Below are positions 24,961-45,525 of a DNA stretch of 64,000 nucleotides, one piece after another. The stretch's first letter is position 1. Every line of letters begins with the position of its first letter. Source of the stretch: a virus; the IMG/VR virus record IMGVR_UViG_3300032238_000944, positions 1-64,000 of that record. One strand, 5' to 3'. The notes under the pieces are model-generated. The model saw only the letters and a program-made list of their open reading frames with translations, was not told where the DNA came from and did no database searches. Both the position numbers and the translations under genes were made by a program.

Positions 24961-25001
24961 TGTCCACTCAACCTCCCAGGGTCTCTGGGAGGTTTTATAA
25001 T
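24961..25001 (+). promoter_or_regulatory. Island promoter, TGTC-type
   Basis: The TGTCCA element starts at 24961 and the -10 box TATAAT at 24996, 35 bases apart. The discriminator is AGCTT rather than the usual GGCCA, so this is the most divergent member. A terminator hairpin fills the space between element and -10, and its T-run runs into the -10 box. Confidence 0.6.
24972..24996 (+). terminator. Rho-independent terminator overlapping a promoter
   Basis: CCTCCCAG and CTGGGAGG form a perfect 8-bp stem with a 5-base loop, followed by TTTT that is continuous with the downstream -10 box. It ends the fibre cluster. Confidence 0.85.
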
Positions 25002-25023
25002 AGCTTCGTGAACTCAGTTTCCT

Positions 25024-25131
25024 ATGCCTCTGACTGCCACTGAAAAGTTAATTTTTATAGCATCATTCGTCAATTTTCTTCACTGGGGCGCAAAAGTCAC
25101 GGAATCTGTACTGAATCATGCTATTTCTTGA
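25024..25131 (+). CDS. Short hydrophobic peptide
   Basis: 35 residues with one hydrophobic stretch (KLIFIASFVNFLHWGAKV). It begins 22 bases after the -10 box and overlaps the next gene by 14 bases. It may be a small membrane peptide or a translated leader. Confidence 0.35.
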   Translation: MPLTATEKLIFIASFVNFLHWGAKVTESVLNHAIS

Positions 25132-25537
25132 AATTACTGGTTATAACTGCTCTAAAAGGCGCTGTGAGAGCATTGTAGAGTGGTTCATAGGGAAATACCT
25201 TCCCAACCATAAATTGGACGTTGTAGTGAACCACAGAGGTCTTCTGAGGGAAGGTGTATATGGTTGGTGTACCGTACTAGATTGTGATCATCGTCCAAGG
25301 GCTTTTGAAATTGAAATGCATAATCGTCTGAATGTAGAAGATTATGCTAAGACTTTGTTTCATGAGCTTTGGCATGTGTATCAACATGTACATGGAGATC
25401 TTCGTGATAAGTATCAGAAACGTCTTTGGAAAGGTGTTGATTGTTCTGAGTTGGATTATGATGATCAACCATGGGAACAAGAAGCAAACTCAATGGAATC
25501 TCAACTGTACCTGATGTACTTGACAGAAACCTCATAA
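25118..25537 (+). CDS. HExxH metalloprotease-like protein (SprT-like)
   Basis: 139 residues. HELWH at residues 82-86 is a zincin motif (His82, Glu83, His86), and WEQEANSMES about 30 residues later offers the third ligand Glu, as in SprT-like and related minimal metallopeptidases. No signal peptide is visible, so it probably acts in the host cytoplasm. It lies in the first transcription unit of the small-gene island, suggesting an early role. A non-proteolytic zinc protein cannot be excluded. Confidence 0.65.
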   Translation: MLFLEITGYNCSKRRCESIVEWFIGKYLPNHKLDVVVNHRGLLREGVYGWCTVLDCDHRPRAFEIEMHNRLNVEDYAKTLFHELWHVYQHVHGDLRDKYQKRLWKGVDCSELDYDDQPWEQEANSMESQLYLMYLTETS

Positions 25538-25569
25538 GTAATTAGAATTGCTTTGTCCGGGTTGATGAG

Positions 25570-26082
25570 ATGGCTATAAGTACTTTAGAGAGACACAAAT
25601 ATAATGGCAATGAGATCATCAAGACTCGTACATTAACATACGAGCCTTACAGATATTGTGAATATAACATGGCACTGGTGATGGGTTTAATAAGACGCAA
25701 ACTCACACCAGATTTGCTATCTACAAGATATCGGGAAGAAAACAAAACAAATCCAACATATGGACATTGCTATCACTCTACACAGGCATTGTTCTATCTG
25801 ATGGATACTGATAAGTTACAACCAATGAGTGGTATTGATTACCGTGGTGAAACTCATTGGTGGTTACAAGATGGAGATAACATTTATGATCTTACTGCGG
25901 AGCAGTATCTTTCCGTAGGAAAGTTGCCACCATATTCTGTAGGTAAGAAAAGTAAATGGTATGGTTGGAAAGGTCGTCCACATCAGAGATCATTGGATCT
26001 CATTGTGAGAGTTCTTGGCAATCGGGTGACAGACACTGTGACAGTTGCCGAAGTGGATGGGGCCTTGACACCTTTCTTTTGA
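25570..26082 (+). CDS. Papain/transglutaminase-fold-like hypothetical protein
   Basis: 170 residues. YGHCYHSTQALFYLM followed about 30 residues later by GETHWWLQDGDNIYDLTAEQY gives a Cys...His...Asp order typical of papain-like or NlpC/transglutaminase folds in a phage/plasmid family I recognise but cannot name. If the triad is real it would be a cysteine hydrolase. It ends just beyond the -35 box of the next promoter. Confidence 0.5.
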   Translation: MAISTLERHKYNGNEIIKTRTLTYEPYRYCEYNMALVMGLIRRKLTPDLLSTRYREENKTNPTYGHCYHSTQALFYLMDTDKLQPMSGIDYRGETHWWLQDGDNIYDLTAEQYLSVGKLPPYSVGKKSKWYGWKGRPHQRSLDLIVRVLGNRVTDTVTVAEVDGALTPFF

Positions 26083-26094
26083 TCCGTGTATAAT
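26065..26094 (+). promoter_or_regulatory. Consensus sigma-70-type promoter (TTGACA-N18-TATAAT)
   Basis: TTGACA at 26065-26070 lies inside the end of the previous gene, then an 18-base spacer and TATAAT at 26089-26094. The following AGCCAGGTAAGCAACGG matches the leader after the 8.1-kb promoter at 14 of 16 bases from GCCAGG onward. It drives the ParB-like gene. Confidence 0.85.
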
Positions 26095-26164
26095 AGCCAG
26101 GTAAGCAACGGACGAGAACTTAGTTCTGCCTTGATTACACACTGTAGTTTACTTAGTTTAACTT

Positions 26165-27337
26165 ATGACAGTTCAAATCCCTTTTATGCCTAGCGAAACT
26201 CAACTTGTTTGGGATCGTGTGGCACAAACTTGCAACAATCCTTTGGGATTGACCGAAGAGATTCTTCAACAATCTCTTGAAGTTTGTCCCGCTCCTGAAT
26301 ATCAAGGAGCAGAGTATATTGGTCGATATCTGGTTCCTCGTTCTTTTGTTCGCTATGATCAAGAAGAACAACCCCGTGATAAAAGTAATGATGCTGATCA
26401 CGTTAATAATCTAGTCAATAATTTTGAGACGATTGGTTATCGTCTGGATGCACAACCTCCCATCAGTTGTTTTGATACAAATGATGTAGCATCTACCAAA
26501 CTCAAAGCACAATCGGGTTATAACCGAAATGAAGCTTTGGATCGGATTGGTCAAGAACTTTATATCTTCGATGTTTATAAGTTTGAGAGTAGGTTTTGGG
26601 AAATTGTTGCTCGCAACCAGTCAAATCACCACTCCAATCCTCAACTTAGTCAGTCTATTCAAGACTACATCAAAGAAGTTTGCAATGCTGTGGAAAATGA
26701 AATCATTCCTGGTGATGCAGATGCTATTTCTGATTTTGTAGATCTGATTGCTACAGATAAAACTGCTAAAGCTCGTAAAAAAATTAAAGTTACTTGCTTT
26801 AACAACTGTCAGGTATTTCCTAACTTCCGTACCTACAATTCTGTTGGTGCTGGTAAAAATACTTTGAATGGATTCATTAAAGAAAATGGATTTGTAAAAC
26901 AAGGTGTTGAAGGTCGTACTGATGAAGAGTTGAAAGCACAAGGTTATATTACCTATTGTGCTGGCAATGGTGACAACAAAAGCAGTTGGATGCGAGCACT
27001 CTATCACGGAACTCGTTTGGGTCTTCCCGTGTGGATCTTTGGTTATGCAGCAAATCGTGTAGATAACCTAGAACAGTTCCGTGCAGAATACATCAATGAT
27101 TTCAATGAATTGAAACAAGTGATGCTTGAGTTTGCTTTCTCGATTGCTGATGGTGGAGAGCAATCTTCGATTGATGAAGATGCTTTTTGTGTCAAACTCG
27201 CTGGATTTTTGCCTCAGTATGTGAAACCCAATCCTCAAGATAGGGGTCGTCCTACTGAAAATACATTGGTTGATGTATATGGCAATTCTATTCGGTTTGA
27301 TCCTGATGGAGATTGTCTGACACTTTCCCAACCCTGA
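26165..27337 (+). CDS. ParB-like domain protein
   Basis: 390 residues. Residues about 55-125 follow the ParB/Srx N-terminal pattern: RSFVRYDQEEQPR, then a DADHVNNLVNNFETIGYRLDA-type helix, APPIS-like strand and SGYNRNEALDRIG, equivalent to the ParB GxxR...A motif. The remainder is helical, with a Lys-rich stretch near 200 and no recognised nuclease motif. It has its own promoter and terminator and is followed by an SF2 helicase with a separate promoter. ParB-like folds can bind DNA, hydrolyse nucleotides or act in modification systems; which applies is unknown. Confidence 0.6.
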   Translation: MTVQIPFMPSETQLVWDRVAQTCNNPLGLTEEILQQSLEVCPAPEYQGAEYIGRYLVPRSFVRYDQEEQPRDKSNDADHVNNLVNNFETIGYRLDAQPPISCFDTNDVASTKLKAQSGYNRNEALDRIGQELYIFDVYKFESRFWEIVARNQSNHHSNPQLSQSIQDYIKEVCNAVENEIIPGDADAISDFVDLIATDKTAKARKKIKVTCFNNCQVFPNFRTYNSVGAGKNTLNGFIKENGFVKQGVEGRTDEELKAQGYITYCAGNGDNKSSWMRALYHGTRLGLPVWIFGYAANRVDNLEQFRAEYINDFNELKQVMLEFAFSIADGGEQSSIDEDAFCVKLAGFLPQYVKPNPQDRGRPTENTLVDVYGNSIRFDPDGDCLTLSQP

Positions 27338-27351
27338 TCCAATTTGTGAAC

Positions 27352-27392
27352 TGTCACACGGGGTCCACACGGACCCCTTTTTGCTGTATAAT
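27352..27392 (+). promoter_or_regulatory. Island promoter, TGTC-type
   Basis: TGTCAC begins at 27352 within a short inverted repeat TGTGA-ACTG-TCACA. The -10 TATAAT starts at 27387 (35 bases later) and is followed by GGCCAT. A terminator hairpin lies between them. There is no recognisable -35 hexamer 17 bases from the -10 box (TCCACA). It drives the helicase gene. Confidence 0.75.
27360..27382 (+). terminator. Rho-independent terminator inside a promoter module
   Basis: GGGGTCC-ACAC-GGACCCC is a perfect 7-bp stem with a 4-base loop followed by five T residues. It terminates the ParB-like gene. Confidence 0.88.
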
Positions 27393-27413
27393 GGCCATAT
27401 CGAAACGAAAGCA

Positions 27414-28637
27414 ATGGAACTTCGCCCCCATCAACAACGTGCCCTAGATGCTCTCGTAAAGCATGTTATTGGGCAGGTGATCATCCCGACTGGCGGAGGT
27501 AAGACCAATGTTGCTATTTTTGATGCAATCCGTGAGTTTCAGTCTGATGCTCCTAAAACCATCGTAGTGGTTGCCCCGCGCATCCTTCTGGCAGAGCAGT
27601 TGTCTAGTGAGTTTCTTGAGTTTATCACAAATGTTGCAGTATTGCACGTTCATAGTGGCGAAACTCATCACTTCAACACCACTAAACCTGCTGAGATCTA
27701 CAACTGGTCTCGTCGTGCATACAAACATCAACTGATCTTCACTACCTATAACTCACTCAAGCAACTTGTCACTGCTGGTATTCATGTTGATACCATCTAT
27801 TTTGATGAGGCACATAATTCTGTGCAACGTCATTTCTATCCTGCCACTCAACATTTCAGTCAACATGCTGACCGCTGTTACTTTTTTACTGCTACTCCAA
27901 AGCATTCTCTTGCTGCTAGTAAACCTGGAATGAATGATACCCGAGTGTATGGCCAGGTGATTTGCAATGTACCTGCTCCCGAACTTGTAGATGGTGGTTA
28001 TATTGTACCACCTAAAGTTGTGGTCAAACAACTACCGATGCTTGGCAAACATGCTCAGGTTGCTGATCGTGACAGCGAGAATCTGTTGGATACCATTGAT
28101 GAACAAGGTGTCTCTAAGGTTCTCATCTGTGCCAAAGCTGTCAAGCAGATTCTCAATCTGGTTGCAGAATCTGACTTCTGCCTGCAACTCCAACAGCGTG
28201 GATATTCCTATATGTACATCAGTGCAAAGACTGGTGGTGTGATTGATGGTCAGAAAGTCAATCGTGAGCAATTCTTTGACACTCTCACTGCATGGGGTAA
28301 GGATAACAATAAGAAGTTTGTTGTTCTACATCACTCCATTCTTTCTGAGGGTATCAATGTCAGTGGACTTGAGGCAGTGATTTTTATGCGCTCCATGGAT
28401 TACATTGGTATCAGTCAGACTATTGGCCGTGTGATCCGTTTGCATCATGATGATGCTGCTGGACTGCGCTCTGGTCGTATTGCTCCTGGTGCTGTGCAAG
28501 ACTATACTAAATCTTTTGGTCTTGTGTGCATTCCTGTGTTCAATAAGGTTGGCATCAGTACCGCGCAGAAAGTACAGTCGGTTGTTGATACCATCTTTGT
28601 TCAAGGTGAACCTGCAATCTCTACCGTAAGAAGATAA
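27414..28637 (+). CDS. SF2 DNA/RNA helicase (type III restriction Res/UvsW-like)
   Basis: 407 residues from ATG 27414; a TTG-type upstream start would lie inside the promoter. Superfamily 2 motifs are complete: Q-like RPHQQRA, Walker A PTGGGKT (Lys30), DEAH (131-134), TATP (about 158-161), an SEGINVSG segment and motif VI QTIGRVIRLH (about 335-344). This is a minimal two-domain ATP-driven translocase/helicase without extra domains. The gene is visibly richer in G+C than the structural genes. Beside a ParB-like gene it suggests a DNA-processing or anti-defence pair; a UvsW-like recombination helicase is the main alternative. Confidence 0.85.
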   Translation: MELRPHQQRALDALVKHVIGQVIIPTGGGKTNVAIFDAIREFQSDAPKTIVVVAPRILLAEQLSSEFLEFITNVAVLHVHSGETHHFNTTKPAEIYNWSRRAYKHQLIFTTYNSLKQLVTAGIHVDTIYFDEAHNSVQRHFYPATQHFSQHADRCYFFTATPKHSLAASKPGMNDTRVYGQVICNVPAPELVDGGYIVPPKVVVKQLPMLGKHAQVADRDSENLLDTIDEQGVSKVLICAKAVKQILNLVAESDFCLQLQQRGYSYMYISAKTGGVIDGQKVNREQFFDTLTAWGKDNNKKFVVLHHSILSEGINVSGLEAVIFMRSMDYIGISQTIGRVIRLHHDDAAGLRSGRIAPGAVQDYTKSFGLVCIPVFNKVGISTAQKVQSVVDTIFVQGEPAISTVRR

Positions 28638-28640
28638 CAT

Positions 28641-29081
28641 ATGGAAGTCAAATTCACGCAAAATCATTTTAAAAAGTGTAAAGAAGTAACTTGGGATGAT
28701 ATAGTTGAAAAAATTGATAATGAATTTTTTCACCAAACTCATAAAATTATTTGCCCTTCAGATCGTGCTCCAACAATCATTCTTCATAATGATTACTATC
28801 CACTATCAATTAAATCTGCATATAATGAAGTTGAAACCGAAACTGGTATAAAAGATATGCATATCTATACTTCATTGGGTAGAAATGCTTCAACATTTGG
28901 AAGACACTGTGACACAATGGATGTTTTGATTGTTCAATCTAAAGGAAAAATTGATTATGAATTTGATTGTGGTACAATTGTAAGGATGAGTCCAGGGGAT
29001 TCTCTTCACATTCCCAAAGGAGTTTATCACAATCCAATTGTATCCGAACCTAGAATTACATTGAGTTTCTCTTGGCAATAA
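28641..29081 (+). CDS. Cupin/JmjC-like protein
   Basis: 146 residues. The HCDTMD segment (His89, Asp91), the strand LIVQSKGKIDYEF, MSPGDSLHIPKGVYHNP (His130) and a final strand form a cupin barrel with HxD...H ligands. It could be a 2OG/Fe(II) JmjC-type oxygenase or a simple cupin. The gene is much more AT-rich than the helicase before it and the gene after it, suggesting separate acquisition. Confidence 0.7.
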   Translation: MEVKFTQNHFKKCKEVTWDDIVEKIDNEFFHQTHKIICPSDRAPTIILHNDYYPLSIKSAYNEVETETGIKDMHIYTSLGRNASTFGRHCDTMDVLIVQSKGKIDYEFDCGTIVRMSPGDSLHIPKGVYHNPIVSEPRITLSFSWQ

Positions 29082-29084
29082 ATT

Positions 29085-29624
29085 ATGAAAGACTGGACAA
29101 TCTACTGTGAGACTACCTACAACAGTCTCAGGGCCAATATTCACAACTGGGGTAAACCAGAGTTTGCTCGCCCCATCACCAGAATCTACTATATCGGTGT
29201 TTTTGATTGCGGTGTGCCCAATCCTACGGGTCTGATCAGCGAAAATGCACTCAAAAACAAAAATATAAAACAGAAGGTCGTACATGACCATTATTTGTCT
29301 CCACAATTCATTGGACGGATGATTCTGGACAATCCTGAGGTGTATTTGACCGATTTTGACAAGTTCAAATCGATTTTTTGGCAGTCTTGTCAGACCATCG
29401 TGGTCACTCAGCAGGAAAACGATGCCCTGGCTGCTCTGACATCAAATGATGGTAACATATATAAAGTTCAAGTGCCAACCTATTTGAAGTACAATCATCT
29501 TAAGATTAAATTAAATAAACGTCCAGAAAATACAATCCGATGGAATACTTCAGTTCCAATTGAATCTAACATTCTAGAGGTTCCTGAAGAACTTACACAA
29601 TATGAAAAGAGGTTTCTAGTATGA
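29085..29624 (+). CDS. Hypothetical protein
   Basis: 179 residues, no family recognised. It shows HDHYLSPQFIGRMIL, VYLTDFDKFKSIFWQSCQTIVVTQQEN and a charged C-terminus. It is comparatively GC-rich and ends in an ATGA overlap with the next short gene. The HDH segment might bind metal, but no second ligand cluster is evident. Confidence 0.65.
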   Translation: MKDWTIYCETTYNSLRANIHNWGKPEFARPITRIYYIGVFDCGVPNPTGLISENALKNKNIKQKVVHDHYLSPQFIGRMILDNPEVYLTDFDKFKSIFWQSCQTIVVTQQENDALAALTSNDGNIYKVQVPTYLKYNHLKIKLNKRPENTIRWNTSVPIESNILEVPEELTQYEKRFLV

Positions 29625-29794
29625 GAGAAGGATTCATCACGGCAGACGGTTATGCGGCTGTCCCCTGGGGCAAAAAAAACCTGATTATCCTGTATAATGG
29701 CCATCAGATAGAGACGGTAAGCACACCGCTCCAAGCACAAAAGTTCATTAAAAACCACCGCACTAATCCATCCAAAGGAACAGTATTCCTATGA
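29621..29794 (+). CDS. Small hypothetical protein containing an internal promoter
   Basis: 57 residues, joined to both neighbours by ATGA overlaps, which argues that it is translated. Its middle codons (LYNGHQIETV) are the -10 box and discriminator of a TGTC-type promoter, so the protein sequence is constrained by the promoter or the reading frame is partly fortuitous. It carries a basic C-terminus. No family recognised. Confidence 0.55.
   Translation: MREGFITADGYAAVPWGKKNLIILYNGHQIETVSTPLQAQKFIKNHRTNPSKGTVFL
29659..29698 (+). promoter_or_regulatory. Island promoter, TGTC-type (intragenic)
   Basis: TGTCCC at 29659 and TATAAT at 29693 (34 bases apart), followed by GGCCAT. The whole element lies inside the coding sequence of a 57-residue protein. 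It drives the secreted-type protein at 29791. Confidence 0.7.
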
Positions 29795-30198
29795 AACTCC
29801 CAGCACTACTATCTCTTGCATTGTTTGCTCCAATGCCTGTGTTTGCACAACAGACAAACATCTATCAGGTATGTACAACCTATCAAGAGAACTATGCTCC
29901 TGGATATTATGATCAGTATGGTAACTATCGTCAAGGAAATGTAAGCACTCAGGCTTATAATACTCAGTGTGGTACTGGTACATACTATCGCCCCAATACT
30001 GGTGGTACATATTATCCAACACCTGTTGTAGCTCCAGTTGCACAACCATATCGTAGGTCATGTGCTGCTGCTCCTATTGGCGCTATTCTTGGTGGTTTTG
30101 GTGCATACAAAGCAACCAGTAGTGTACCCAATCGTTGGTGGTCTGTTCCTCTAGGTGTTGTAACTGGTGGAATTGTTGGAAATGCTCTCTGTAACTAA
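29791..30198 (+). CDS. Exported protein with glycine-zipper-like segment
   Basis: 135 residues. A clear signal peptide (MKLPALLSLALFAPMPVFAQ) with cleavage expected after VFA. The mature part is Tyr/Gln/Thr-rich and ends with a Gly/Ala-rich hydrophobic segment (APIGAILGGFGAY..., LGVVTGGIVGNALC) like glycine-zipper membrane proteins. It contains four or five Cys. I infer an envelope-located protein, possibly in superinfection exclusion or lysis; function is not shown. Confidence 0.75.
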   Translation: MKLPALLSLALFAPMPVFAQQTNIYQVCTTYQENYAPGYYDQYGNYRQGNVSTQAYNTQCGTGTYYRPNTGGTYYPTPVVAPVAQPYRRSCAAAPIGAILGGFGAYKATSSVPNRWWSVPLGVVTGGIVGNALCN

Positions 30199-30199
30199 A

Positions 30200-30394
30200 A
30201 TGAAAACTGAGTTTATTTGTGTCAAACCTAAATCATCAAAAGCAAAGAATAGATTTGCAAATATGATGGATAGTCTTCATTCTTGTCGTGTTGAACAACG
30301 CAAGGATGGTAAAGTCTTTCTTGCATCTATTAGTGGTAAATACTTCTTTTGGTTGAATGAAAGCGGTGATGATCATTGGGAAATTATAAAATAA
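30200..30394 (+). CDS. Small conserved hypothetical protein
   Basis: 64 residues from ATG 30200. A basic N-terminal half (KPKSSKAKNRFANMM) precedes two strands (KVFLASISGKYFFWL). It resembles a small protein common in cyanophages, with no known function. It starts 1 base after the exported-protein gene and overlaps the next start by one base (TAATG). Confidence 0.65.
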   Translation: MKTEFICVKPKSSKAKNRFANMMDSLHSCRVEQRKDGKVFLASISGKYFFWLNESGDDHWEIIK

Positions 30395-30927: not shown

Positions 30928-31104
30928 ATGGATAAATCAGAAAAACGTAACCGAGCACTAGGTCTTTTTGTTGAAAGTGTACTCAAACCAGATCCAGAAC
31001 TTCGCCAATGCTCTCACAATCAAGAGTGCTTTAATGAACTGCTTGAATGGAGATCTGAAGTTCTTGAGTATCTACAAAAACGAAGAGAAGAGGAATTTGG
31101 TTAA
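30928..31104 (+). CDS. Small charged hypothetical protein
   Basis: 58 residues, helical, ending in a charged tail (EYLQKRREEEFG). It starts directly after the oxygenase stop and overlaps the next ATG by one base. Confidence 0.55.
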   Translation: MDKSEKRNRALGLFVESVLKPDPELRQCSHNQECFNELLEWRSEVLEYLQKRREEEFG

Positions 31105-33654: not shown

Positions 33655-33828
33655 ATGACACTTGCAAAAACTGGTTCGGCAGACCTTACAACCGAAGAAT
33701 GGAATGAATTAGTTGCACTTAAAGAAGCAATTAACTATTCTCCACAAACTGTAAGTCCAGAGAAAATGGAAAAGTTTACTGAGCTTATGGTAAGATCCTT
33801 AGAAGGTAAAGGAAATAGGCCAGTTTAA
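33655..33828 (+). CDS. Small hypothetical protein
   Basis: 57 residues from ATG 33655. Helical (LTTEEWNELVALKEAI, SPEKMEKFTELMVRSL). It ends at the beginning of a TGTC-type promoter. No family recognised. Confidence 0.55.
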   Translation: MTLAKTGSADLTTEEWNELVALKEAINYSPQTVSPEKMEKFTELMVRSLEGKGNRPV

Positions 33829-33832
33829 GAAG

Positions 33833-33874
33833 TGGCACATGGCAGTTCCACCTGCTCCCATTTTGCTGTATATT
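33833..33874 (+). promoter_or_regulatory. Island promoter, TGTC-type
   Basis: TGGCAC at 33833 and -10 TATATT at 33869 (36 bases apart), followed by GGCCATGTTGAGA. A weak GCAG/CTGC hairpin lies in the spacer. No -35 box. Confidence 0.7.
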
Positions 33875-33897: not shown

Positions 33898-34305
33898 ATG
33901 GCAACCCGCTCTCGCATTGGTATCGAACTTCGTGACGGTTCTATTCTGTCTGCCTATCATCATTGGGATGGCTATCCTTCCTGGTTGGGTCGCATTCTGA
34001 AGACTCACTACAATAGCAAAGAACTCGCTGCCGAACTGATTGATGGTGGCGATATGAGTTCTGCATGGACTAATGCAGGTTTCAAAAATGAAACTGTTGC
34101 TCAAGGTGCTCTTTATTATTCTTCCCGTGGTGAAGATTGCCCTCCTCGCCTTGATAAGAACTCAGGTGAGTTCTTGACTAAAGATGCTGAAGAATATGCA
34201 TATCTTTATACTGAATCTGAAGGTTGGTTGTGCTATGATACTTGCGATTGGCATGAAACTTATCTTGAAAGTCAAGAAATCCCCTCTGTTGCTCTTGCTG
34301 TATGA
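33898..34305 (+). CDS. Conserved phage hypothetical protein (MATRSRIG family)
   Basis: 135 residues. The opening MATRSRIGIELRDGSILSAY and HHWDGYPSWLG are a recurrent opening in many unrelated phages; its function is unknown to me. The remainder has acidic and aromatic clusters (YLYTESEGWLCYDTCDWHETY). It starts 23 bases after a -10 box and is more GC-rich than the structural genes. Confidence 0.7.
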   Translation: MATRSRIGIELRDGSILSAYHHWDGYPSWLGRILKTHYNSKELAAELIDGGDMSSAWTNAGFKNETVAQGALYYSSRGEDCPPRLDKNSGEFLTKDAEEYAYLYTESEGWLCYDTCDWHETYLESQEIPSVALAV

Positions 34306-35450: not shown

Positions 35451-35725
35451 AACTCTTTCAAGTAGCAAAGTTTTATGTAAGAGAGGATTATGGTAAGGAA
35501 TATTGTCTATCACTCTTCCTTACAGAAAAATATTCACTCTTACAAGTTGCTTTTGATATTGGTGAGTATGGTTCTTGGATAGAGTTTCCTTATCTACAAA
35601 TCTCTATGGGTTATGGAAAGTTATTCTCATTCTTATTCACTTTGGGAAAATTAGGTTTCACTTTTGATATTGCTGGTAGAAATTGGAGAGATAAGCACTT
35701 TTATGTTCAAGGAAGTGAAGAATGA
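35447..35725 (+). CDS. Hypothetical protein
   Basis: 92 residues with many aromatic and hydrophobic residues (LFQVAKFYVRE, YGSWIEFPYLQISMGYGKLFSFLF) and a short basic end. It has the look of a compact beta protein. ATGA overlaps with the neighbours. Confidence 0.5.
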   Translation: MKLFQVAKFYVREDYGKEYCLSLFLTEKYSLLQVAFDIGEYGSWIEFPYLQISMGYGKLFSFLFTLGKLGFTFDIAGRNWRDKHFYVQGSEE

Positions 35726-36000
35726 GTAGATTTCAAGAAAATCTTGATGAACAATTCTTAAAAGAAACGGCAACCAAAGTAGCAAATGTTCTTCATATGC
35801 CTTTAGGTGAAATTGAACCGTTAAAGCTTATAGAATTGTTCTCGTGTCTTTATATTCTTATGGGTGGTGATGAAGAACTTATGATACATTGGTTGAATAC
35901 TCATAACAATCATCTTGGGTTTAATCCTGCTGCAAGATTGACAGATGAACAATCTATGAATAAAATTATAGGATACTTAGAGAGTATGTGTTATCACTGA
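35722..36000 (+). CDS. Small protein resembling Xre/MbcA/ParS toxin-binding domain
   Basis: 92 residues. LYILMGGDEELMIHWLNTHNNHLGFNPAARL has the order and spacing of the C-terminal domain of Xre/ParS antitoxins (helix, WL, N, L-G-x-x-P). This is a weak pattern match. No toxin gene is adjacent. Overlaps its neighbours by four bases and one base. Confidence 0.4.
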   Translation: MSRFQENLDEQFLKETATKVANVLHMPLGEIEPLKLIELFSCLYILMGGDEELMIHWLNTHNNHLGFNPAARLTDEQSMNKIIGYLESMCYH

Positions 36001-36579: not shown

Positions 36580-36779
36580 TGGCAAACTTCAATGTAGAAC
36601 AACAAAAAATAATCTATAATGCTGTTCGTTATTATCAAATCAATCGCGTTACATTAGACAGCAAATTATATAAAGACTGCGATGCAATTCTAAATGAATT
36701 ATTTCCAACTGTAATACAGCATGTGCCAGTTGATCAAGAGGCCCCTGCAAACACAACAAAACCTGGAACTACTGTATAG
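36579..36779 (+). CDS. Small hypothetical protein
   Basis: 66 residues from ATG 36579, helical (FNVEQQKIIYNAVRYYQINRV) with a flexible Pro/Thr-rich tail (VPVDQEAPANTTKPGTTV). Overlaps the previous stop by one base. Confidence 0.55.
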   Translation: MANFNVEQQKIIYNAVRYYQINRVTLDSKLYKDCDAILNELFPTVIQHVPVDQEAPANTTKPGTTV

Positions 36780-36786
36780 TGGCTAC

Positions 36787-38733: not shown

Positions 38734-38741
38734 TATAAATA
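38734..38741 (+). promoter_or_regulatory. Late promoter (TATAAATA)
   Basis: A perfect late octamer, 23 bases ahead of the GIY-YIG endonuclease gene and just after a terminator. It lies between the arms of an 8-bp inverted repeat TGTTTGGC/GCCAAACA (38685-38692 and 38747-38754). Confidence 0.75.
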
Positions 38742-38764: not shown

Positions 38765-39391
38765 ATGGAATACTACACTTACGCTTATTTGCGTGAAAAT
38801 AGAACACCTTACTACATTGGTAAAGGTAAAGGTAATAGAGTTTACCAAAAAAATAGAAAATCAATAAACCCACCAAAAGATAAATCTAGAATAATATTTC
38901 TAAAACGAAATTTAACTGAAAAGGAAGCATTTAAACATGAAGTTTATATGATTTCTGTGTTTGGTAGAAAAGATTTGGGTACAGGTATTCTTTATAATCT
39001 TACAAATGGTGGAGAGGGAACTTCTGGAGCAAATAATTCGGGAAAAAGAAACGGTTTCTATCAAAAATCTCATACGGAAGAAACAAAACTAAAAATATCT
39101 AAAGCAAAAATTGGAACCAAGTTTCCTGAAGAATTAAAACCATTAGTATCCAAGAGAACTAAAAAAATGTGGGAAGATGGTGGTGTGTTTTCTACACCAA
39201 AGTTTAGACAAAAACTATCACAATCTTTATGCAAAAAGCAATATCAACTTACTAATGAAGAAGGGGAGGTATATTATACTAATAACATAGTGCTATTTTC
39301 CAAAGAACACAATTTAGATTACAGTTCAATGTACAAAGTTGTTAAAGGAAAACTAAAGTATTATAAAGGATGGGTAGGAAAAATCATATGA
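38765..39391 (+). CDS. GIY-YIG homing-type endonuclease with NUMOD motifs
   Basis: 208 residues. YTYAYLRENRTPYYIGKGKG is the GIY-YIG catalytic start; NLTNGGEGTSG and HTEETKLKISKAKIG are NUMOD3-like DNA-binding repeats, and VLFSKEHNLDYSSMYKVVKG is a NUMOD1-like helix-turn-helix. This is the usual Seg-like free-standing mobile endonuclease of T4-like phages. It is AT-rich and sits between two MKxFxxF genes, probably cutting that locus in related phages. Its own late promoter follows the pattern of T4 seg genes under late control. Confidence 0.9.
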   Translation: MEYYTYAYLRENRTPYYIGKGKGNRVYQKNRKSINPPKDKSRIIFLKRNLTEKEAFKHEVYMISVFGRKDLGTGILYNLTNGGEGTSGANNSGKRNGFYQKSHTEETKLKISKAKIGTKFPEELKPLVSKRTKKMWEDGGVFSTPKFRQKLSQSLCKKQYQLTNEEGEVYYTNNIVLFSKEHNLDYSSMYKVVKGKLKYYKGWVGKII

Positions 39392-39423: not shown

Positions 39424-39642
39424 ATGAAAACGTTTCAACAATTTCAAGAACAGTTGGAAAGAGGTAGATTAACTCCAGCAACACCTGCACAAACACAACA
39501 ACAACGTGTTTCAAGTGTAAAGAGAGCAAGCATGATTGCTACAAAGATGCGTGGTCGTGCATCAGATGAATTAGATTCTCATCAATCCAACATGAGAACA
39601 CTACTCAAAAAGTCTGGAGAAGATATTAAAGGGGCCCACTAA
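39424..39642 (+). CDS. Small MKTFxxF-type protein
   Basis: 72 residues. The N-terminus MKTFQQFQEQL is followed by a Gln/Thr/Pro-rich linker and a basic helix. With the gene before the endonuclease it shares the N-terminal motif and late promoter, suggesting a late, perhaps prohead- or virion-associated role. Confidence 0.65.
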   Translation: MKTFQQFQEQLERGRLTPATPAQTQQQRVSSVKRASMIATKMRGRASDELDSHQSNMRTLLKKSGEDIKGAH

Positions 39643-39648
39643 TCAGGC

Positions 39649-39689
39649 TGTCCACTATTCTCCCCAAATGCCCTCAGAACCTGTATATT
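39649..39689 (+). promoter_or_regulatory. Island promoter, TGTC-type
   Basis: TGTCCA at 39649 and -10 TATATT at 39684 (35 bases), followed by GGCCATGTT. The -10 box sits in the loop of a perfect 10-bp inverted repeat. Confidence 0.75.
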
Positions 39690-39972: not shown

Positions 39973-39974
39973 TC

Positions 39975-40283: not shown

Positions 40284-40462
40284 CAATGAATGTAACCGAA
40301 CATAACATCAGTGATTGGGAGTTGAGTAATAGTGAAATTGAAGAGATCATTCGTCTCACTAAACTTGAGATGAAAAAGTATCCTGAAGATAAAGAAACTC
40401 AAATGTTCTATGGTATGATAGTTGGAAAGCTTATGATCATGAAGAATAATGAGGACACTTGA
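40280..40462 (+). CDS. Small helical protein
   Basis: 60 residues, helical and acidic, ATGA overlap with the previous gene. Ends just before the terminator-promoter module. Confidence 0.55.
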   Translation: MTMNVTEHNISDWELSNSEIEEIIRLTKLEMKKYPEDKETQMFYGMIVGKLMIMKNNEDT

Positions 40463-40467
40463 AGAAC

Positions 40468-40509
40468 TGTCACAAGGGCCCTTGCAAGAGGGTCTTTTTG
40501 CTGTATGAT
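40468..40509 (+). promoter_or_regulatory. Island promoter, TGTC-type
   Basis: TGTCAC at 40468 and -10 TATGAT at 40504 (36 bases), followed by GGCCAC and then directly ATG. A terminator lies in the spacer. It drives the ligase-like gene. Confidence 0.7.
40476..40499 (+). terminator. Rho-independent terminator inside a promoter module
   Basis: GGCCCTT-GCAA-GAGGGTC forms a 7-bp stem with two G-U pairs followed by five T residues. Confidence 0.75.
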
Positions 40510-40515
40510 GGCCAC

Positions 40516-41412: not shown

Positions 41413-41966
41413 AATATAAAAATGTATCTACAAGTGATGGAAAAGTTATTCACATTTATGATGAGGTTTTTTCTGAATTTGAAAAAAGTTTTCATGAAAA
41501 GTTTTGTTTTGAATCTAATTTTAGATTAAGTTGGCAGTCATTTTTGTTGCCTTATTTTAGATGTAATCTTAGTGAAGAAGATGTAAAAAACTTTCGTTTT
41601 TTTGATAATGAAAACATCGTTAATATAATTAAAAATCATGTGGGGGAAAATGTTAAAGTAATTGCAAGCTGGATTATTGTTACAACACCCTCTTTGATTC
41701 CTTACAATTTTCATCATGATGCCACTGATGATGATAAAGATAATCAAAAAATCATTTTATATTATGTAAATAATGAATGGAATCGTAATTGGCACGGTCA
41801 AACATTATATGCAAATGACAATGGTGAATGTGAAATTGCAGTAGAATATAAACCGGGAAGAATTACTGTATATGATGCAAAAACTTGTCACGCTTCGGGT
41901 CCAATTACAAGTCCTACTTCTAAACCAAAGTTTATTTTTGCGATGCACTTAGAATCTCAATCTTAA
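41409..41966 (+). CDS. 2-oxoglutarate/Fe(II)-dependent oxygenase
   Basis: 185 residues from ATG 41409 (ATGA overlap). FHHDATDDD supplies the HxD-like ligands (His102, Asp104), TCHASGP the distal His161, and KPKFIFAMHLE the basic residue and last strand, typical of the prolyl-4-hydroxylase superfamily. Much more AT-rich than the ligase-like gene upstream. Confidence 0.75.
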   Translation: MKYKNVSTSDGKVIHIYDEVFSEFEKSFHEKFCFESNFRLSWQSFLLPYFRCNLSEEDVKNFRFFDNENIVNIIKNHVGENVKVIASWIIVTTPSLIPYNFHHDATDDDKDNQKIILYYVNNEWNRNWHGQTLYANDNGECEIAVEYKPGRITVYDAKTCHASGPITSPTSKPKFIFAMHLESQS

Positions 41967-41997
41967 AATGGTAAATAGAAAATAAAGAGTATCACAA

Positions 41998-42291
41998 ATG
42001 GAAGAACAGATTGAGATTACAAATGGCATCAATCATCACACTTGTTCATCACTTGAGGAAGCATACATTCTAGGGCAGCATTATGCAACAGAATTGCAAG
42101 GGGAAATCACAATTTTCGTAAATGGTGCAAAAGTTGATACAATCGCACCACAAAATAGATCATCTGAATTGTTTGGAGAGATTCCACCTAATCTAGAAGA
42201 AATGATTGCTGATGGTTATAATCCTAACGCAAAAGATGGTGACGGTGATGGACTCTTACAGGATGGCACAAAATGGGAAAGGCCAGTTTGA
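41998..42291 (+). CDS. Small protein with EF-hand-like calcium loop
   Basis: 97 residues. NAKDGDGDGLLQDGTKWERPV contains DxDxDG, an EF-hand/dockerin-type calcium loop. The N-terminal 60 residues are a mixed alpha/beta domain (SLEEAYILGQHYATEL, GEITIFVNGAKVD). I recognise similar C-termini in other cyanophage proteins. The final codons and stop are shared in sequence with the end of the gene at 33655 (GGCCAGTTTRAG), both immediately before a TGTC promoter. Confidence 0.6.
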   Translation: MEEQIEITNGINHHTCSSLEEAYILGQHYATELQGEITIFVNGAKVDTIAPQNRSSELFGEIPPNLEEMIADGYNPNAKDGDGDGLLQDGTKWERPV

Positions 42292-42295
42292 GGGC

Positions 42296-42336
42296 TGTCC
42301 ACCATTTCACCCACTGGCAGCCAAATGATGTATATT
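42296..42336 (+). promoter_or_regulatory. Island promoter, TGTC-type (copy H)
   Basis: TGTCCA at 42296, -10 TATATT at 42331 (35 bases), then GGCCATGTTGAGAG. Its 63-base context recurs at 43101. Confidence 0.8.
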
Positions 42337-42359
42337 GGCCATGTTGAGAGATGAATCAC
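42297..42359 (+). repeat. 63-base direct repeat, copy 1 (copy 2 at 43101-43163)
   Basis: The two copies, 804 bases apart, differ at 5 positions, four of them clustered in the spacer of the promoter. Each includes the promoter and the first codons (ATGAATCAC) of the following gene. Confidence 0.9.
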
Positions 42360-42590
42360 ATGGATCGCAAGTTTCACACCGTCAGCATTGAAGATCGTGA
42401 GATGTTTGCTTATAATGCTGCCTACAACAAATCGAAGGCAGAGATTGCACGAATCAACGCACATCCTGAACAGCGTATGAAATATTGTTTTGAGTTTATG
42501 ACACATGCTGATGACGAAATGCGTGTGAAATGCTACAACGCAATCGCAAAGTATTCCGCACAACTTGACTACTCCGAAGCACACTTCTGA
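42351..42590 (+). CDS. Small hypothetical protein
   Basis: 79 residues (ATG 42351; ATG 42360 possible). Helical and basic/His-rich (SKAEIARINAHPEQRMKYCF). It begins 15 bases after the -10 box; the first codons are part of a duplicated segment. Confidence 0.55.
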   Translation: MNHMDRKFHTVSIEDREMFAYNAAYNKSKAEIARINAHPEQRMKYCFEFMTHADDEMRVKCYNAIAKYSAQLDYSEAHF

Positions 42591-42611
42591 ATCCTTCACT
42601 AACACAAATCC

Positions 42612-42887
42612 ATGCTCGATTACCTCTGCATTTGTTTCGGTCATTCTGACATTCCGAACCACTGGTATAACATGAAGAGTCGTCATTCGACTGCTCGTGC
42701 TGCTGAAAGATTCGGTCTTGATAATATGTGTGTGGCAGGACAATTTGGTTTCGTTGTGATTGAAGAGACCAAAGATACCTGGAAGGTGTTAGATGATCGT
42801 TCGATGTTGCCTCCTTCTGGTTATAGTATTGGTTGCAACAATACCAACCTTTATGTTCAACCTGCTCCCCAACTTGTTCTTGTTTGA
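42612..42887 (+). CDS. Hypothetical protein
   Basis: 91 residues with a mixed alpha/beta pattern (DYLCICFGHSDIPNHWYNMKS, AGQFGFVVIEETKDTWKVLDD). Cys/His residues are scattered without an obvious site. TGATG overlap with the next gene. Confidence 0.55.
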   Translation: MLDYLCICFGHSDIPNHWYNMKSRHSTARAAERFGLDNMCVAGQFGFVVIEETKDTWKVLDDRSMLPPSGYSIGCNNTNLYVQPAPQLVLV

Positions 42888-43027
42888 TGATGATGATGAC
42901 TGATGATGAACTGTTTCGTAATCTCCTTGCCACATTGATTTGTGAGGATAAGTTAGAAGAATGGGAAACAAAAGCCGCTGAGTTAGAGTTACCATTGGAC
43001 TACTACATTCAGGAGTTTGTAGGATGA
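42887..43027 (+). CDS. Small acidic protein
   Basis: About 46 residues. Four consecutive in-frame ATG codons (42887, 42890, 42893, 42896) make the start uncertain. The rest is helical (ELFRNLLATLICEDKLEEWE). The ATG run may be a slip-prone or strong initiation site. Confidence 0.5.
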   Translation: MMMMTDDELFRNLLATLICEDKLEEWETKAAELELPLDYYIQEFVG

Positions 43028-43158
43028 AAGCTACGGTCTTTGCATTAGTCTGTCTTGGAATTGGTCAGGCAATTCTAATCAGTGTGCCAGTTCCCGAAGT
43101 GTCCACCATTTCACCCACTGGGTCTCAAATGATGTATATTGGCCATGTTAAGAGATGA
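43024..43158 (+). CDS. Small signal-peptide-bearing peptide containing an internal promoter
   Basis: 44 residues. MKATVFALVCLGIGQAILI looks like a signal peptide or single membrane helix. The remainder (EVSTISPTGSQMMYIGHVKR) is encoded by the TGTC-type promoter sequence itself. It may be an expressed peptide that tolerates the promoter, or a chance frame. ATGA overlap with the upstream gene favours expression. Confidence 0.4.
   Translation: MKATVFALVCLGIGQAILISVPVPEVSTISPTGSQMMYIGHVKR
43100..43140 (+). promoter_or_regulatory. Island promoter, TGTC-type (copy I)
   Basis: TGTCCA at 43100, -10 TATATT at 43135 (35 bases), then GGCCATGTTAAGAG. It is a near copy of the one at 42296. Confidence 0.8.
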
Positions 43159-43163
43159 ATCAC
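43101..43163 (+). repeat. 63-base direct repeat, copy 2 (copy 1 at 42297-42359)
   Basis: See copy 1: identical except for 5 positions, four of them between the upstream element and the -10 box. Confidence 0.9.
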
Positions 43164-43331
43164 CAAATGCGAATTGATGTCAAATGCCATGCTGCTCCCT
43201 GGGAGAATACCACCACTGATGTGGATCGTGCCTATGATCTCGCATATGATTTGAGTGAAGAATACCAATGCGATGTGGATCTTCGCTATAATGAAACTGG
43301 CATCATTTTCACCACTGTTTCTAACTATTGA
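43155..43331 (+). CDS. Small acidic hypothetical protein
   Basis: 58 residues. The first three residues (MNH) repeat those of the gene at 42351 through the duplicated segment, but the rest is unrelated. Beta/alpha pattern (MRIDVKCHAAPWEN, CDVDLRYNETGIIFTTV). ATGA overlap with the peptide upstream. Confidence 0.55.
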   Translation: MNHQMRIDVKCHAAPWENTTTDVDRAYDLAYDLSEEYQCDVDLRYNETGIIFTTVSNY

Positions 43332-43334
43332 ATC

Positions 43335-43535
43335 ATGAAAAACATGACTTTTGTTGAAGGATTGATCGCATCTGGTTATGTATTTGATGATGAGAACTAT
43401 GATGGTTGTTATGTAAAACAAGATGCAGATGGTTTCATTCATTGTTATCAAGAAGGAGAAGATGAAGGTGAATGGAATTATGTGAAAATGACTGATGAGT
43501 TTGATATTATCACTGAGAAAACATTTGCACTCTGA
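43335..43535 (+). CDS. Small acidic hypothetical protein
   Basis: 66 residues, with many Asp/Glu (GCYVKQDADGFIHCYQEGED). Likely a small beta protein. One-base overlap with the next start (TGATG). Confidence 0.55.
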   Translation: MKNMTFVEGLIASGYVFDDENYDGCYVKQDADGFIHCYQEGEDEGEWNYVKMTDEFDIITEKTFAL

Positions 43536-43798
43536 TGATCTATTCAAATCTGTCAAAGATCAAACCAAAACTGAGAACAACTGGTCGCGTCTCTGGTAAC
43601 TTTGGACGCAACAAAGTTCAAGCAGGTTCTTCACTTAATGAGATTGGAATGAGTACCAAAGAGACAATCAAATGTACCACACAAGATGAATATCTGAAGC
43701 GTCTACATGATGCCTTTGATCATACCACAGATTCAAAACTGCGTCAGTTCATTTATACTGAGATTCGCAAGATTCATGTTCAACGCGGGACATGGTGA
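43535..43798 (+). CDS. Small basic hypothetical protein
   Basis: 87 residues. A basic N-terminus (KIKPKLRTTGRVSGNFGRN) suggests nucleic-acid binding; the C-terminal half is helical. No family recognised. Confidence 0.55.
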   Translation: MIYSNLSKIKPKLRTTGRVSGNFGRNKVQAGSSLNEIGMSTKETIKCTTQDEYLKRLHDAFDHTTDSKLRQFIYTEIRKIHVQRGTW

Positions 43799-43810
43799 CA
43801 GTCTGACAAG

Positions 43811-43853
43811 TGGCACAAGGCCCCTTGTGGACAGCCCCCATCTCATGTATTAT
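43811..43853 (+). promoter_or_regulatory. Island promoter, TGTC-type
   Basis: TGGCAC at 43811 and -10 TATTAT at 43848 (37 bases), followed by GGCCACATG. A near-palindrome CACAAGG-CC-CCTTGTG overlaps the upstream element, and CTCATGT/ACATGAG flank the -10 box. Confidence 0.65.
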
Positions 43854-43859
43854 GGCCAC

Positions 43860-43919
43860 ATGAGGGAAAGGGATTGCCCCAAACCTCACACTTCACTCGC
43901 TAATCACTCTCATGCGTAA
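43860..43919 (+). CDS. Possible leader peptide
   Basis: 19 residues (MRERDCPKPHTSLANHSHA) starting 7 bases after the -10 box, with its stop overlapping the next gene's start by 8 bases. The arrangement suits translational coupling; no attenuator-type codon run is seen. Confidence 0.3.
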   Translation: MRERDCPKPHTSLANHSHA

Positions 43920-44235
43920 GATTGAACAACTGATGAATGATGCAATTTCCAACAAGAAAGATTGGAAACTTGCTAACACTTGTGTCGAGTATTTCAGTGG
44001 TCATGATATTTCTCGTGTGTATCTGCATGACAATTTGATTGCTGAGATTGGTCCTACTTATGTTCAACTGTTCGATGGTGGATGGCAAACCAACACCACC
44101 AAATCGCGTCTCAATGCTATTCTTTCTGCACACGGATTGCCTGGAGAAGGTGTATTCCAAAAGAACTTTAATTGGTTCTTTCAGTCTCATGACTATGGCA
44201 CGATTCCTTTCTTTTCAGGTATGCGAATTGCCTGA
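43912..44235 (+). CDS. Conserved phage hypothetical protein
   Basis: 107 residues. TCVEYFSGHDISRVYLHDNLIAEIG, FDGGWQTNTTKSRLNAIL and FQKNFNWFF form a compact alpha/beta unit I recognise from other cyanophages without known function. Confidence 0.65.
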   Translation: MRKIEQLMNDAISNKKDWKLANTCVEYFSGHDISRVYLHDNLIAEIGPTYVQLFDGGWQTNTTKSRLNAILSAHGLPGEGVFQKNFNWFFQSHDYGTIPFFSGMRIA

Positions 44236-44273
44236 TTCTTTGTTCACCTTTTTCACAAACTTCGATTGATAAA

Positions 44274-44447
44274 ATGACTGACAACAAACTTGAAATGTTG
44301 AGTGCTCGTGAACAACTTATGAGCGATATTGATTGTATCATCGAAAGTTTCTTTTATGATACCTGGGGCGATGAATACAACGAAGAACAACAAGAATTGG
44401 TGAAAACCTTGTGTGATGCTGTCTGTGCAAACTTTCCTTCTAAATGA
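44274..44447 (+). CDS. Small acidic helical protein
   Basis: 57 residues, acidic, helical (MLSARE-QLMSDIDCIIESFF). Four-base overlap with the next gene. Confidence 0.55.
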   Translation: MTDNKLEMLSAREQLMSDIDCIIESFFYDTWGDEYNEEQQELVKTLCDAVCANFPSK

Positions 44448-44611
44448 CAATGACTAACACCAAAGATCTTTATTATACTGATGCCAAAGATGGCAAAGAA
44501 CGTATGATTCAAGTTCCCGAAAATCTTGCATGGATTATGGTTCAGTCAATGCACATTGCTGGTGTTGATGCTTATATTGATCTCACTCCTACTGATACCA
44601 TTGCTGCCTAA
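44444..44611 (+). CDS. Small hypothetical protein
   Basis: 55 residues (second Met at 44450 possible). A beta strand/helix pattern with VPENLAWIMVQSMHIAG. No family. Confidence 0.5.
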   Translation: MTMTNTKDLYYTDAKDGKERMIQVPENLAWIMVQSMHIAGVDAYIDLTPTDTIAA

Positions 44612-44615
44612 TCTC

Positions 44616-44849
44616 ATGATCATTCCAATTCTAAACAAACGTGGAAACACTCCCAAACCTTATCAAATCTCAAAGGAGAAAGTAGATCATAAAGAAGGAA
44701 GATTTATCGTCTGGAAGTATCACAAAAAAGTCATTGTGAATCATCAAGTGATGTACAAGTATTCACCGATTCGATATGATCAAGAACTCGCAAGGTTTAA
44801 GACAATGAAAGATGCAAAAGAGTTTGGACGTTATATCGTAGGACTATGA
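44616..44849 (+). CDS. Small basic hypothetical protein
   Basis: 77 residues from ATG 44616. Very basic (KRGNTPKPYQISKEKVDHKEG, KYHKKVIVNHQV) with three strands; could bind nucleic acid. ATGA overlap with the next gene. Confidence 0.6.
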   Translation: MIIPILNKRGNTPKPYQISKEKVDHKEGRFIVWKYHKKVIVNHQVMYKYSPIRYDQELARFKTMKDAKEFGRYIVGL

Positions 44850-45016
44850 GTAAGGTTATCGCATTGCATCACACAGAGGTTATACTTCTGAGAACAGATC
44901 AGGTTCATTTTATCAAGAATCTGTTACGAGACTATGTGATAAGAACTGATAACAAAAGAAAATGTAATGATGCCATTCACATTCTTACTACTATTAGTAA
45001 GCAGTTAAATGATTAA
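44846..45016 (+). CDS. Small basic hypothetical protein
   Basis: 56 residues, helical (DQVHFIKNLLRDYVI, CNDAIHILTTISKQL). It is the last gene before the largest gene-free stretch in the window. Confidence 0.55.
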   Translation: MSKVIALHHTEVILLRTDQVHFIKNLLRDYVIRTDNKRKCNDAIHILTTISKQLND

Positions 45017-45050
45017 AAAAGCCTTTTTTTAATTAAGCTGAGTTTAAGAA

Positions 45051-45094
45051 GTTTTCCACAAGCTGTTGAAAATTATGTGTTAATTGTGGAAAAC
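45051..45094. repeat. Inverted pair of DnaA-box-like sequences
   Basis: GTTTTCCACA (45051-45060) and TGTGGAAAAC (45085-45094) are perfect reverse complements 24 bases apart. TTTTCCACA is the DnaA-box form described for cyanobacteria. Confidence 0.7.
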
Positions 45095-45227
45095 ATTGAT
45101 ACTTTAAAGCCCTTGGTTGTTGTGCATTAGGACCCTTATAAACCCTTCTAGTCCTTGTGATCTTTGCGTGCAAGCTATCACAACCGCACAAAAATGTCAA
45201 GGCCCCTGATAAATACTCCCATGCCCC

Positions 45228-45257
45228 TTGACATAACCGCACAGGGGGGATTATACT
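45228..45257 (+). promoter_or_regulatory. Sigma-70-type promoter (TTGACA-N18-TATACT)
   Basis: A perfect TTGACA at 45228-45233, spacer 18, TATACT at 45252-45257, followed by GGCCAC. The discriminator is shared with the TGTC-type island promoters, but this one carries a normal -35 box. Confidence 0.8.
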
Positions 45258-45288
45258 GGCCACAGTACAACAAACCCTCCGAGGTCTT

Positions 45289-45456
45289 ATGTCAGTTTCC
45301 TACCTTCAAGCTCAGAAAAAGCATGTGCGTGTGACACTGGATCTTTCAGTTTACAGTGACTTCGATGCCCGACAGATTGACTATGCAAAACTATTCGGAT
45401 TGGATGGAGATGAGTCAGTCTCAGTATACGTGGAGGACATGGAGATTGACTGGTAG
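45289..45456 (+). CDS. Small acidic hypothetical protein
   Basis: 55 residues. VRVTLDLSVYSDFDARQIDYAK and SVSVYVEDMEIDW suggest a small alpha/beta unit. ATG follows CCGAGG by 4 bases, and lies 32 bases after the -10 box. Confidence 0.55.
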   Translation: MSVSYLQAQKKHVRVTLDLSVYSDFDARQIDYAKLFGLDGDESVSVYVEDMEIDW

Positions 45457-45466
45457 CTTATAACGA

Positions 45467-45490
45467 TGTGACAGTTGTAGAAGTGTCACA
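45467..45490. repeat. Inverted repeat TGTGACA/TGTCACA
   Basis: TGTGACA (45467-45473) and TGTCACA (45484-45490), separated by 10 bases; the right arm is the upstream element of the next TGTC-type promoter. It suggests a dimeric regulator recognising the TGTC element. Confidence 0.6.
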
Positions 45491-45525
45491 GTAAATGAGC
45501 ACAACCCCCTCAGATGATGTATATT
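45484..45525 (+). promoter_or_regulatory. Island promoter, TGTC-type
   Basis: TGTCAC at 45484 and -10 TATATT at 45520 (36 bases), followed by AGCCATGTTGAGAG. No -35 box. Confidence 0.75.

Follow-up and report, generated by a model that had tools for sequence, protein, structure and literature searches.

A dyad at fixed distance from the -10 box characterizes a promoter family in the small-gene islands of T4-like marine cyanophages

What kind of signal is the short TGTC element that recurs upstream of -10 boxes in the small-gene island of virus record IMGVR_UViG_3300032238_000944 (database IMG/VR)? The window analysed here comprises positions 1 to 64,000 of this 82,925-base record (the window plus the remaining 19 kb) and belongs to a T4-like cyanophage, its helicase matching 431 phage records that were mostly Synechococcus phages. 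A previous sequence-only reading had listed ten sites where the element preceded a -10 hexamer by 34 to 37 bases. Its ten TGTC or TGGC tetramers and their distances to the -10 hexamer were all confirmed here, and the ten sites belong to one real promoter family. Yet this family had only been half seen, and the interpretation was partly supported. The upstream context of the ten sites showed that the full element is a dyad, roughly GMCASTTnnnnAASTGKC in this record, of which TGTC is only the right half; the claimed element was thus real and fixed in spacing, but its left half had gone unnoticed.

Two members had also been missed. One of them (26054) surfaced in a regular-expression scan; a symmetric matrix of 11 sites was then run over the whole record, and its top 13 places were these 11 sites, the new site 36739 and an unrelated place at 2971. 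The total is therefore 12 sites, including all ten of the initial list, with distances (d, from the start of TGKC to the -10 box) of 34-37 bases. All 12 lie within one quarter of the record (24,944-45,525), and their announced confinement to the small-gene island was borne out. When each site was left out in turn and ranked among 82,906 positions with the other sites masked, nine of the 12 came first; 27352 ranked 2, and the two weak members, both from the initial list, ranked 5 (29659) and 23 (39649). Combined dyad/-10 scores ranged from 27.6 to 49.5 for the 12 sites and did not exceed 10.7 in two Markov shuffles of the record, a comparison that is biased taken alone, the matrix having been trained on the same 12 sites. 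A matrix built from 178 promoters of other phages, and holding no site of this record, placed ten of the 12 at record ranks 1-10 and the remaining two at 12 and 16. This test is strong but not fully independent, because its promoters had been retrieved by matrices that started from the sites of this record.

The dyad was not restricted to the phage in which it was noticed. With at most one mismatch, the pattern gave 137 matches in 16 phage records, against 17 for the reversed pattern; T4 and P-SSP7 had none. In a further scan P-HM2 had nine matches, and PSS2, Syn5, HTVC008M, Ma-LMM01 and S-CBS2 had none. The matrix of the 12 own sites found 91 dyads scoring at least 18 in other cyanophages (11 genomes or parts). 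Around these, with both sides pooled, -10-like hexamers occurred 15, 30 and 27 times at 35, 36 and 37 bases, and at most nine times at any other distance between 5 and 79. Pooling the relatives yielded a 24-base-pair (bp) element, TGTGMCASTT-N4-AASTGKCACA, with the -10 box 35-37 bases from the start of TGKC. Across 13 genomes or genome parts of cyanomyoviruses, the pooled matrix recorded 188 dyad/-10 promoters, versus 0-0.7 per shuffled genome, and none in T4, P-SSP7 or HTVC008M. In this set spacing was restricted to 34-38 (35, 91 and 51 promoters at 35, 36 and 37, respectively), and S-SM2 and S-ShM2 stood outside it. The motif scan of the record and of related cyanophages, which the sequence-only reading had proposed, hence revealed a spacing that is not random, with a peak at 35-37 and about none in shuffles, and its implied restriction to this phage has to be abandoned.

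Environmental sequences provided controls that do not depend on any matrix. One exact version of the promoter was found in 77 IMG/VR stretches at d=36, in one at d=31 and in none at d=41. Leaving the query sites aside, the 77 loci contained 268 further dyads, with a -10 box at 35, 36 and 37 bases in 33, 177 and 48 cases, and the best protein match of each locus was a cyanomyovirus proteome. The same design thus recurs in most related marine cyanophages examined. Syn9 displayed nine dyad/-10 places, six of them within 44.7-53.1 kb, and S-PM2 13 candidates in its first 24 kb (first matrix). S-SM2 and S-ShM2 were poorer, with 6 and 9 dyads and 2 and 3 dyad/-10 places (shuffles 0-5 and 0-1), and the pattern scan of S-SM2 (1 match, 2 reversed) was not above control. 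At the DNA level, the island of the window gave short matches only to known phages (megablast). A similarity search with a motif-bearing stretch of S-SKS1 chiefly retrieved the adjacent gene, which annotated records label CP12, and was uninformative on the motif.

The pooled profile showed a TATAAT-like -10 box in fixed relation to the dyad. The likely start, A+1 T+2, lies 12 bases downstream of the position where the -10 box begins. The conserved element is at about -65 to -42, and there was no conserved box near -30 in this profile. The sequence-only reading had set the end of the element near -42, where an activator could touch RNA polymerase, and this was supported. TG occurred immediately before the -10 box in 11 of the 12 own sites, a position differing from the canonical TGn. 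The absence of a -35 box was not supported as a rule: a weak pooled signal was present 16-18 bp from the -10 box, with at least five of six TTGACA matches in 32 of the 188 promoters (nine of these 32 in ACG-2014f) compared to 3.0 in shuffled spacers; one of the ten own promoters within the 188 set reached this level. The 25-30 bp spacer between dyad and -10 box was loosely constrained in sequence; stems of at least 7 bp were found in 59 of the 188 spacers versus 8.9 in shuffles. The T4 late element TATAAATA was found at none of the 12 -10 boxes, and the record has two copies of it, at 17238 and 38734.

Downstream of the -10 box, (G/A)GCCA follows in nine of the ten initial sites, as had been reported (the exception, 24961, has AGCTT). 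This discriminator is peculiar to the present phage and cannot serve as a family feature, since relatives carry other sequences there. Bases following the -10 box were nevertheless alike within one phage in Syn9, S-SCSM1, Bellamy, ACG-2014f and the window (in the latter e.g. AAGAGTCAAAGG, ATATTCATACCAAAG and GGCCATGTTGAGAG), which suggests a shared leader.

The promoters are oriented towards genes. In a set of 175 promoters (the S-SCSM1 and Bellamy parts excluded, the two weak own sites included), 154 had the start of a same-strand open reading frame (ORF) between -150 and +400. In P-HM2, where PHM2_056-064 form a minus-strand cluster, three minus-strand promoters immediately precede two of its genes, PHM2_060 and PHM2_061. 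Some orthologues were preceded by the element in several phages: the helicase family (in 9 clustered genomes) and the DUF6267 family (in 11) each had a promoter in six genomes. The islands of Syn9 and S-PM2 consist of small genes, mostly of unknown function; judging from this gene content and from earlier work on Syn9, we infer that the dyad promoters drive early genes.

In the window, all 12 promoters lie on the plus strand. The first (24944..25001; dyad 24944-24967, -10 TATAAT 24996-25001, d=35) is the one followed by AGCTT; its spacer holds a hairpin, acctcccag-ggtct-ctgggaggttt, at about 24971-24995, which was read by eye and is absent from the list of the terminator scan. The second (26037..26094), overlooked initially, combines dyad 26037-26060 (TGTGACAGTTGCCGAAGTGGATGG) with TTGACA at 26065 and -10 TATAAT at 26089-26094 (d=35), upstream of a 390-amino-acid ORF (26165-27337). 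Next comes the promoter of the helicase (UvsW-like) gene, whose ATG is at 27414 (27335..27392; dyad 27335-27358, -10 TATAAT 27387-27392, d=35); here the scan did list a terminator-like hairpin (27360-27377) and T run between dyad and -10 box. A weak dyad at 29642-29665 (29642..29698; -10 TATAAT 29693-29698, d=34) precedes ORF 29791-30198, and dyad 33816-33839 (33816..33874; -10 TATATT 33869-33874, d=36) precedes ORF 33898-34305 (phrog_1987). The twelfth site to be found (36722..36780) consists of dyad 36722-36745 and -10 TATAGT 36775-36780 (d=36), followed by GGCTA, and the weakest one, with leave-one-out rank 23, of dyad 39632-39655 and -10 TATATT 39684-39689 (39632..39689; d=35).

The DUF6267 gene (phrog_455) is preceded by dyad 40451-40474 and -10 TATGAT 40504-40509 (40451..40509; d=36); its start codon is uncertain, the first ATG (40516) being very near this -10 box. 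Promoter 42279..42336 (dyad 42279-42302, -10 TATATT 42331-42336, d=35) lies upstream of ORF 42351-42590 and has a near-copy at 43083..43140 (dyad 43083-43106, -10 TATATT 43135-43140, d=35). The last two are found before ORF 43912-44235 (43794..43853; dyad 43794-43817, -10 TATTAT 43848-43853, d=37) and ORF 45549-45836, a DUF7249 gene (45467..45525; -10 TATATT 45520-45525, d=36). The dyad of the latter, 45467-45490 (TGTGACAGTTGTAGAAGTGTCACA), scored highest under the matrix of other phages.

Two plus-strand promoter-like sites provide a contrast: TTGACA-17-TATAAT at 8102..8130 and TTGACA-18-TATACT at 45228..45257, both followed by GGCCA and both without dyad. Three TTGACA promoters had originally been described as devoid of the element, which holds for these two but not for 26065, where dyad 26037-26060 is present at d=35. 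The site at 8102..8130 is situated upstream of a tRNA-Leu(taa)/tRNA-Thr(tgt) region (8102-9000). Among other genes of the island, a 92-amino-acid ORF at 35722-36000 gave a weak match to the C-terminal part of Xre/MbcA/ParS antitoxins (E 7e-4, below the curated cut-off) and is possibly a DNA-binding antitoxin. ORF 38765-39391 displayed NUMOD3 and weak GIY-YIG matches (homing-endonuclease-like) as well as a local match to T4, with the TATAAATA copy at 38734 just upstream.

How would such promoters work? Probably, they are sigma-70 promoters serving the small-gene island, with a dimeric activator on the dyad compensating for a -35 box that is weak or missing. A host sigma-70-type holoenzyme would read the TATAAT-like -10 box, while a dimeric DNA-binding protein would occupy the dyad and recruit RNA polymerase through the alpha C-terminal domain or sigma region 4, thereby offsetting poor -35 contact. 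In about one third of the promoters, the spacer hairpin resembles a terminator of the upstream unit, so that dyad, terminator and promoter may form a compact joint between gene blocks.

S-SM2 (NC_015279) suggests that whole promoter systems are exchangeable between relatives. Between 42686 and 57150, this phage carries ten AAGGGGGGTCGNNTAAAGYGTCCCTATAGT-like copies; they occupy the small-gene island, which in other phages contains the dyad promoters, and two of them stand before its helicase and DUF6267 genes. The core of the motif was absent from the 17 other genomes or genome parts examined. Its exact form occurred in 21 IMG/VR stretches, all 21 with cyanomyovirus-like protein matches. These 21 loci contained 53 motif copies and four dyad promoters (in two loci), whereas the 77 dyad loci contained 352 dyad promoters and no AAGGGGGGTCGNNTAAAGYGTCCCTATAGT copy, a contrast inflated by the fact that each set was selected for one motif. 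AAGGGGGGTCGNNTAAAGYGTCCCTATAGT is a promoter-like motif unrelated to the dyad. A wider reading, plausible and still tentative, is that T4-like marine cyanophages use a dedicated, phage-specific dimeric activator on the 24-bp dyad for their early genes, in replacement of the Alt/AsiA/MotA proteins of T4. This module would be exchangeable, and in S-SM2-type phages the AAGGGGGGTCGNNTAAAGYGTCCCTATAGT system would largely have taken its place, within the same island and upstream of the same two genes (helicase and DUF6267).

The origin of the presumed activator was approached through a phyletic profile, in which ten complete dyad phages were compared with T4, P-SSP7 and HTVC008M (restricted to families with a median length of at most 400 amino acids that six or more of the ten possess). 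Five families occurred in all ten dyad phages and in none of the three comparators, i.e. phrog_507, phrog_495, a 225-amino-acid family (presumably ThyX-like) and two unnamed ones. The small and strongly conserved phrog_507 (P-HM2 175734-176033) was present in the ten complete dyad phages, S-SM2 and S-ShM2, and had homologues in 34 of 61 host-family genomes. Its structural model (mean predicted local distance difference test score 72.9) showed three confident helices and had no significant match in PDB (best E 6.6). The phrog_495 member of the window is a 58-amino-acid protein (30928-31104); each of the ten complete cyanomyoviruses in the comparison has this family, even the distant S-TIM5. Pfam searches on 20 island ORFs detected no helix-turn-helix family; a fast-evolving regulator would escape both approaches.

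The most serious alternative, which we nevertheless consider unlikely, is that the factor is a host transcription regulator taken over by the phages. It would agree with the occurrence of the element in both Synechococcus and Prochlorococcus phages but not in HTVC008M, a SAR11 phage from the same family, and with the lack of a universal phage gene that clearly follows the dyad. Host genomes argue against it: in 61 genomes from the family of Synechococcus RCC307, which may not include hosts of these phages, 89 dyads were recorded versus 276 reversed-control matches, and a dyad with a -10 box only once (1/121), at a locus with one short match to phage proteins. With dyads below control and almost no dyad/-10 combination, no host regulon is visible. 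One of these genomes had five dyad matches, three on one contig (C1) within 16 kb and C26 also bearing matches, which are possibly phage-derived; the locus checked showed a short phage match only. Because of this lack of host-family excess, and because the dyad was absent from the two podoviruses and two siphoviruses tested that infect marine cyanobacteria, we lean towards an activator that is phage-encoded or virion-borne.

Several observations weigh against the activator reading. None of the five profile families stands out as the regulator, and all of them also occur in dyad-poor S-SM2, an exclusion that is weak because S-SM2 keeps six dyads, two with a -10 box. HTVC008M shares core genes and has no dyad promoter, which fits a host factor too. 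A good -35 box is retained by some dyad promoters (26065 and the 32 of 188 mentioned above), and the trade-off expected between dyad score and -35 match was not found among the 188 promoters (Spearman 0.003). S-ShM2 was not above control in the pattern scan (5 matches, 6 reversed) and has a mere three dyad/-10 places, and some family members lie outside small-gene islands. The opposite-strand count of 43, against the 154 same-strand cases, is a lenient control because most genes of these phages are on one strand. Orthologue sharing is supportive only, since the seven gene families with a promoter in at least three genomes exceed the random mean (1.4) but remain below the random maximum (8).

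An improbable variant of protein binding is that the dyad is a repressor operator by which the promoters are shut off. Symmetric operators are common for repressors, and members with a good -35 box could fire unaided. However, a dyad upstream of the core promoter, at tight distance and with a mostly weak -35 box, is an activation layout, and the perfect-TTGACA promoters at 8102 and 45228 lack the dyad. Much less credible still is an RNA or DNA hairpin in a recombination cassette of the promoter early stem-loop (PeSL) type, to which the excess of spacer stems would point, together with a S-PM2 stem-loop (11369-11391, from the portion of PMC4503421 consulted) that falls inside the spacer of dyad promoter 11349. 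These stems sit in the spacer, outside the dyad, and the symmetric variable positions of the dyad itself are mostly non-complementary: the S pair is Watson-Crick in 57 of 188 promoters and the M/K pair complementary in 71 of 188. The S positions are more often GG or CC (106 of 188) than Watson-Crick, which favours a DNA-level site over an RNA stem. A fixed -10 spacing is moreover unexpected for a mere hairpin, and the scanned island stretch had no excess of terminator-like sites (9, versus 9.4 in shuffles). Chance, an artefact of base composition or duplication of a single sequence are practically negligible as explanations: 42296 and 43100 are near-copies, but wrong spacings gave 1 and 0 stretches versus 77, shuffles gave about none, and most members have different spacers.

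Doron et al. (2016, ISME J) reportedly described, for Syn9 and P-TIM40, a novel element regulating early genes that is conserved in T4-like cyanophages. The dyad may be the same element, so its novelty is uncertain and it is doubtful that it is unpublished. PeSLs (Arbiol 2010; Comeau 2014) are said to be composites of promoter and stem-loop in T4-like phages. They resemble the present family in that an early promoter and a stem-loop are compactly joined between blocks of genes; the latter family differs by its additional activator-like dyad and by the fact that only about one third of the spacers hold a long stem. The literature searched, in the portions consulted and excluding Doron 2016 and both PeSL papers, yielded no mention of the dyad geometry, the terminator-in-spacer layout or the S-SM2 replacement. 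As far as the consulted part of a 2010 review goes (PMC2984593), it was unclear how cyanomyoviruses carry out early and middle transcription, since alt, modA/B, motA and asiA of T4 are missing; the review mentions that S-PM2 and Syn9 have sigma-70-like motifs upstream of early genes, and that Syn9 and P-SSM4 (written P-SMM4) have a putative middle promoter. The portion of PMC4503421 consulted describes one host-like early promoter and two stem-loops in the ORFanage region of S-PM2, with a PeSL density judged low. The dyad now points to likely promoters in the large islands that are still unannotated in abundant marine viruses, and such phages can be recognized by it computationally in metagenomes.

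T4 middle promoters combine a sigma-70 -10 box and a weak -35 box with a MotA box at -30 that is bound by an activator (AsiA/MotA). Dyad promoters share with them the sigma-70 -10 box, the weak -35 box and an upstream box, the activator being predicted here; their box is however a 24-bp dyad of other sequence, centred near -53. A further difference is that cyanomyoviruses lack motA and asiA, according to the consulted part of PMC2984593. The 24-bp site and its fixed geometry offer a bait for the missing activator. In the class I and class II activator-dependent sigma-70 promoters (CRP, NtcA), a dyad likewise stands at fixed distance upstream of the -10 box. Compared to these, the dyad sequence differs from CRP or NtcA sites and its centre near -53 falls between the classic positions -61.5 and -41.5.

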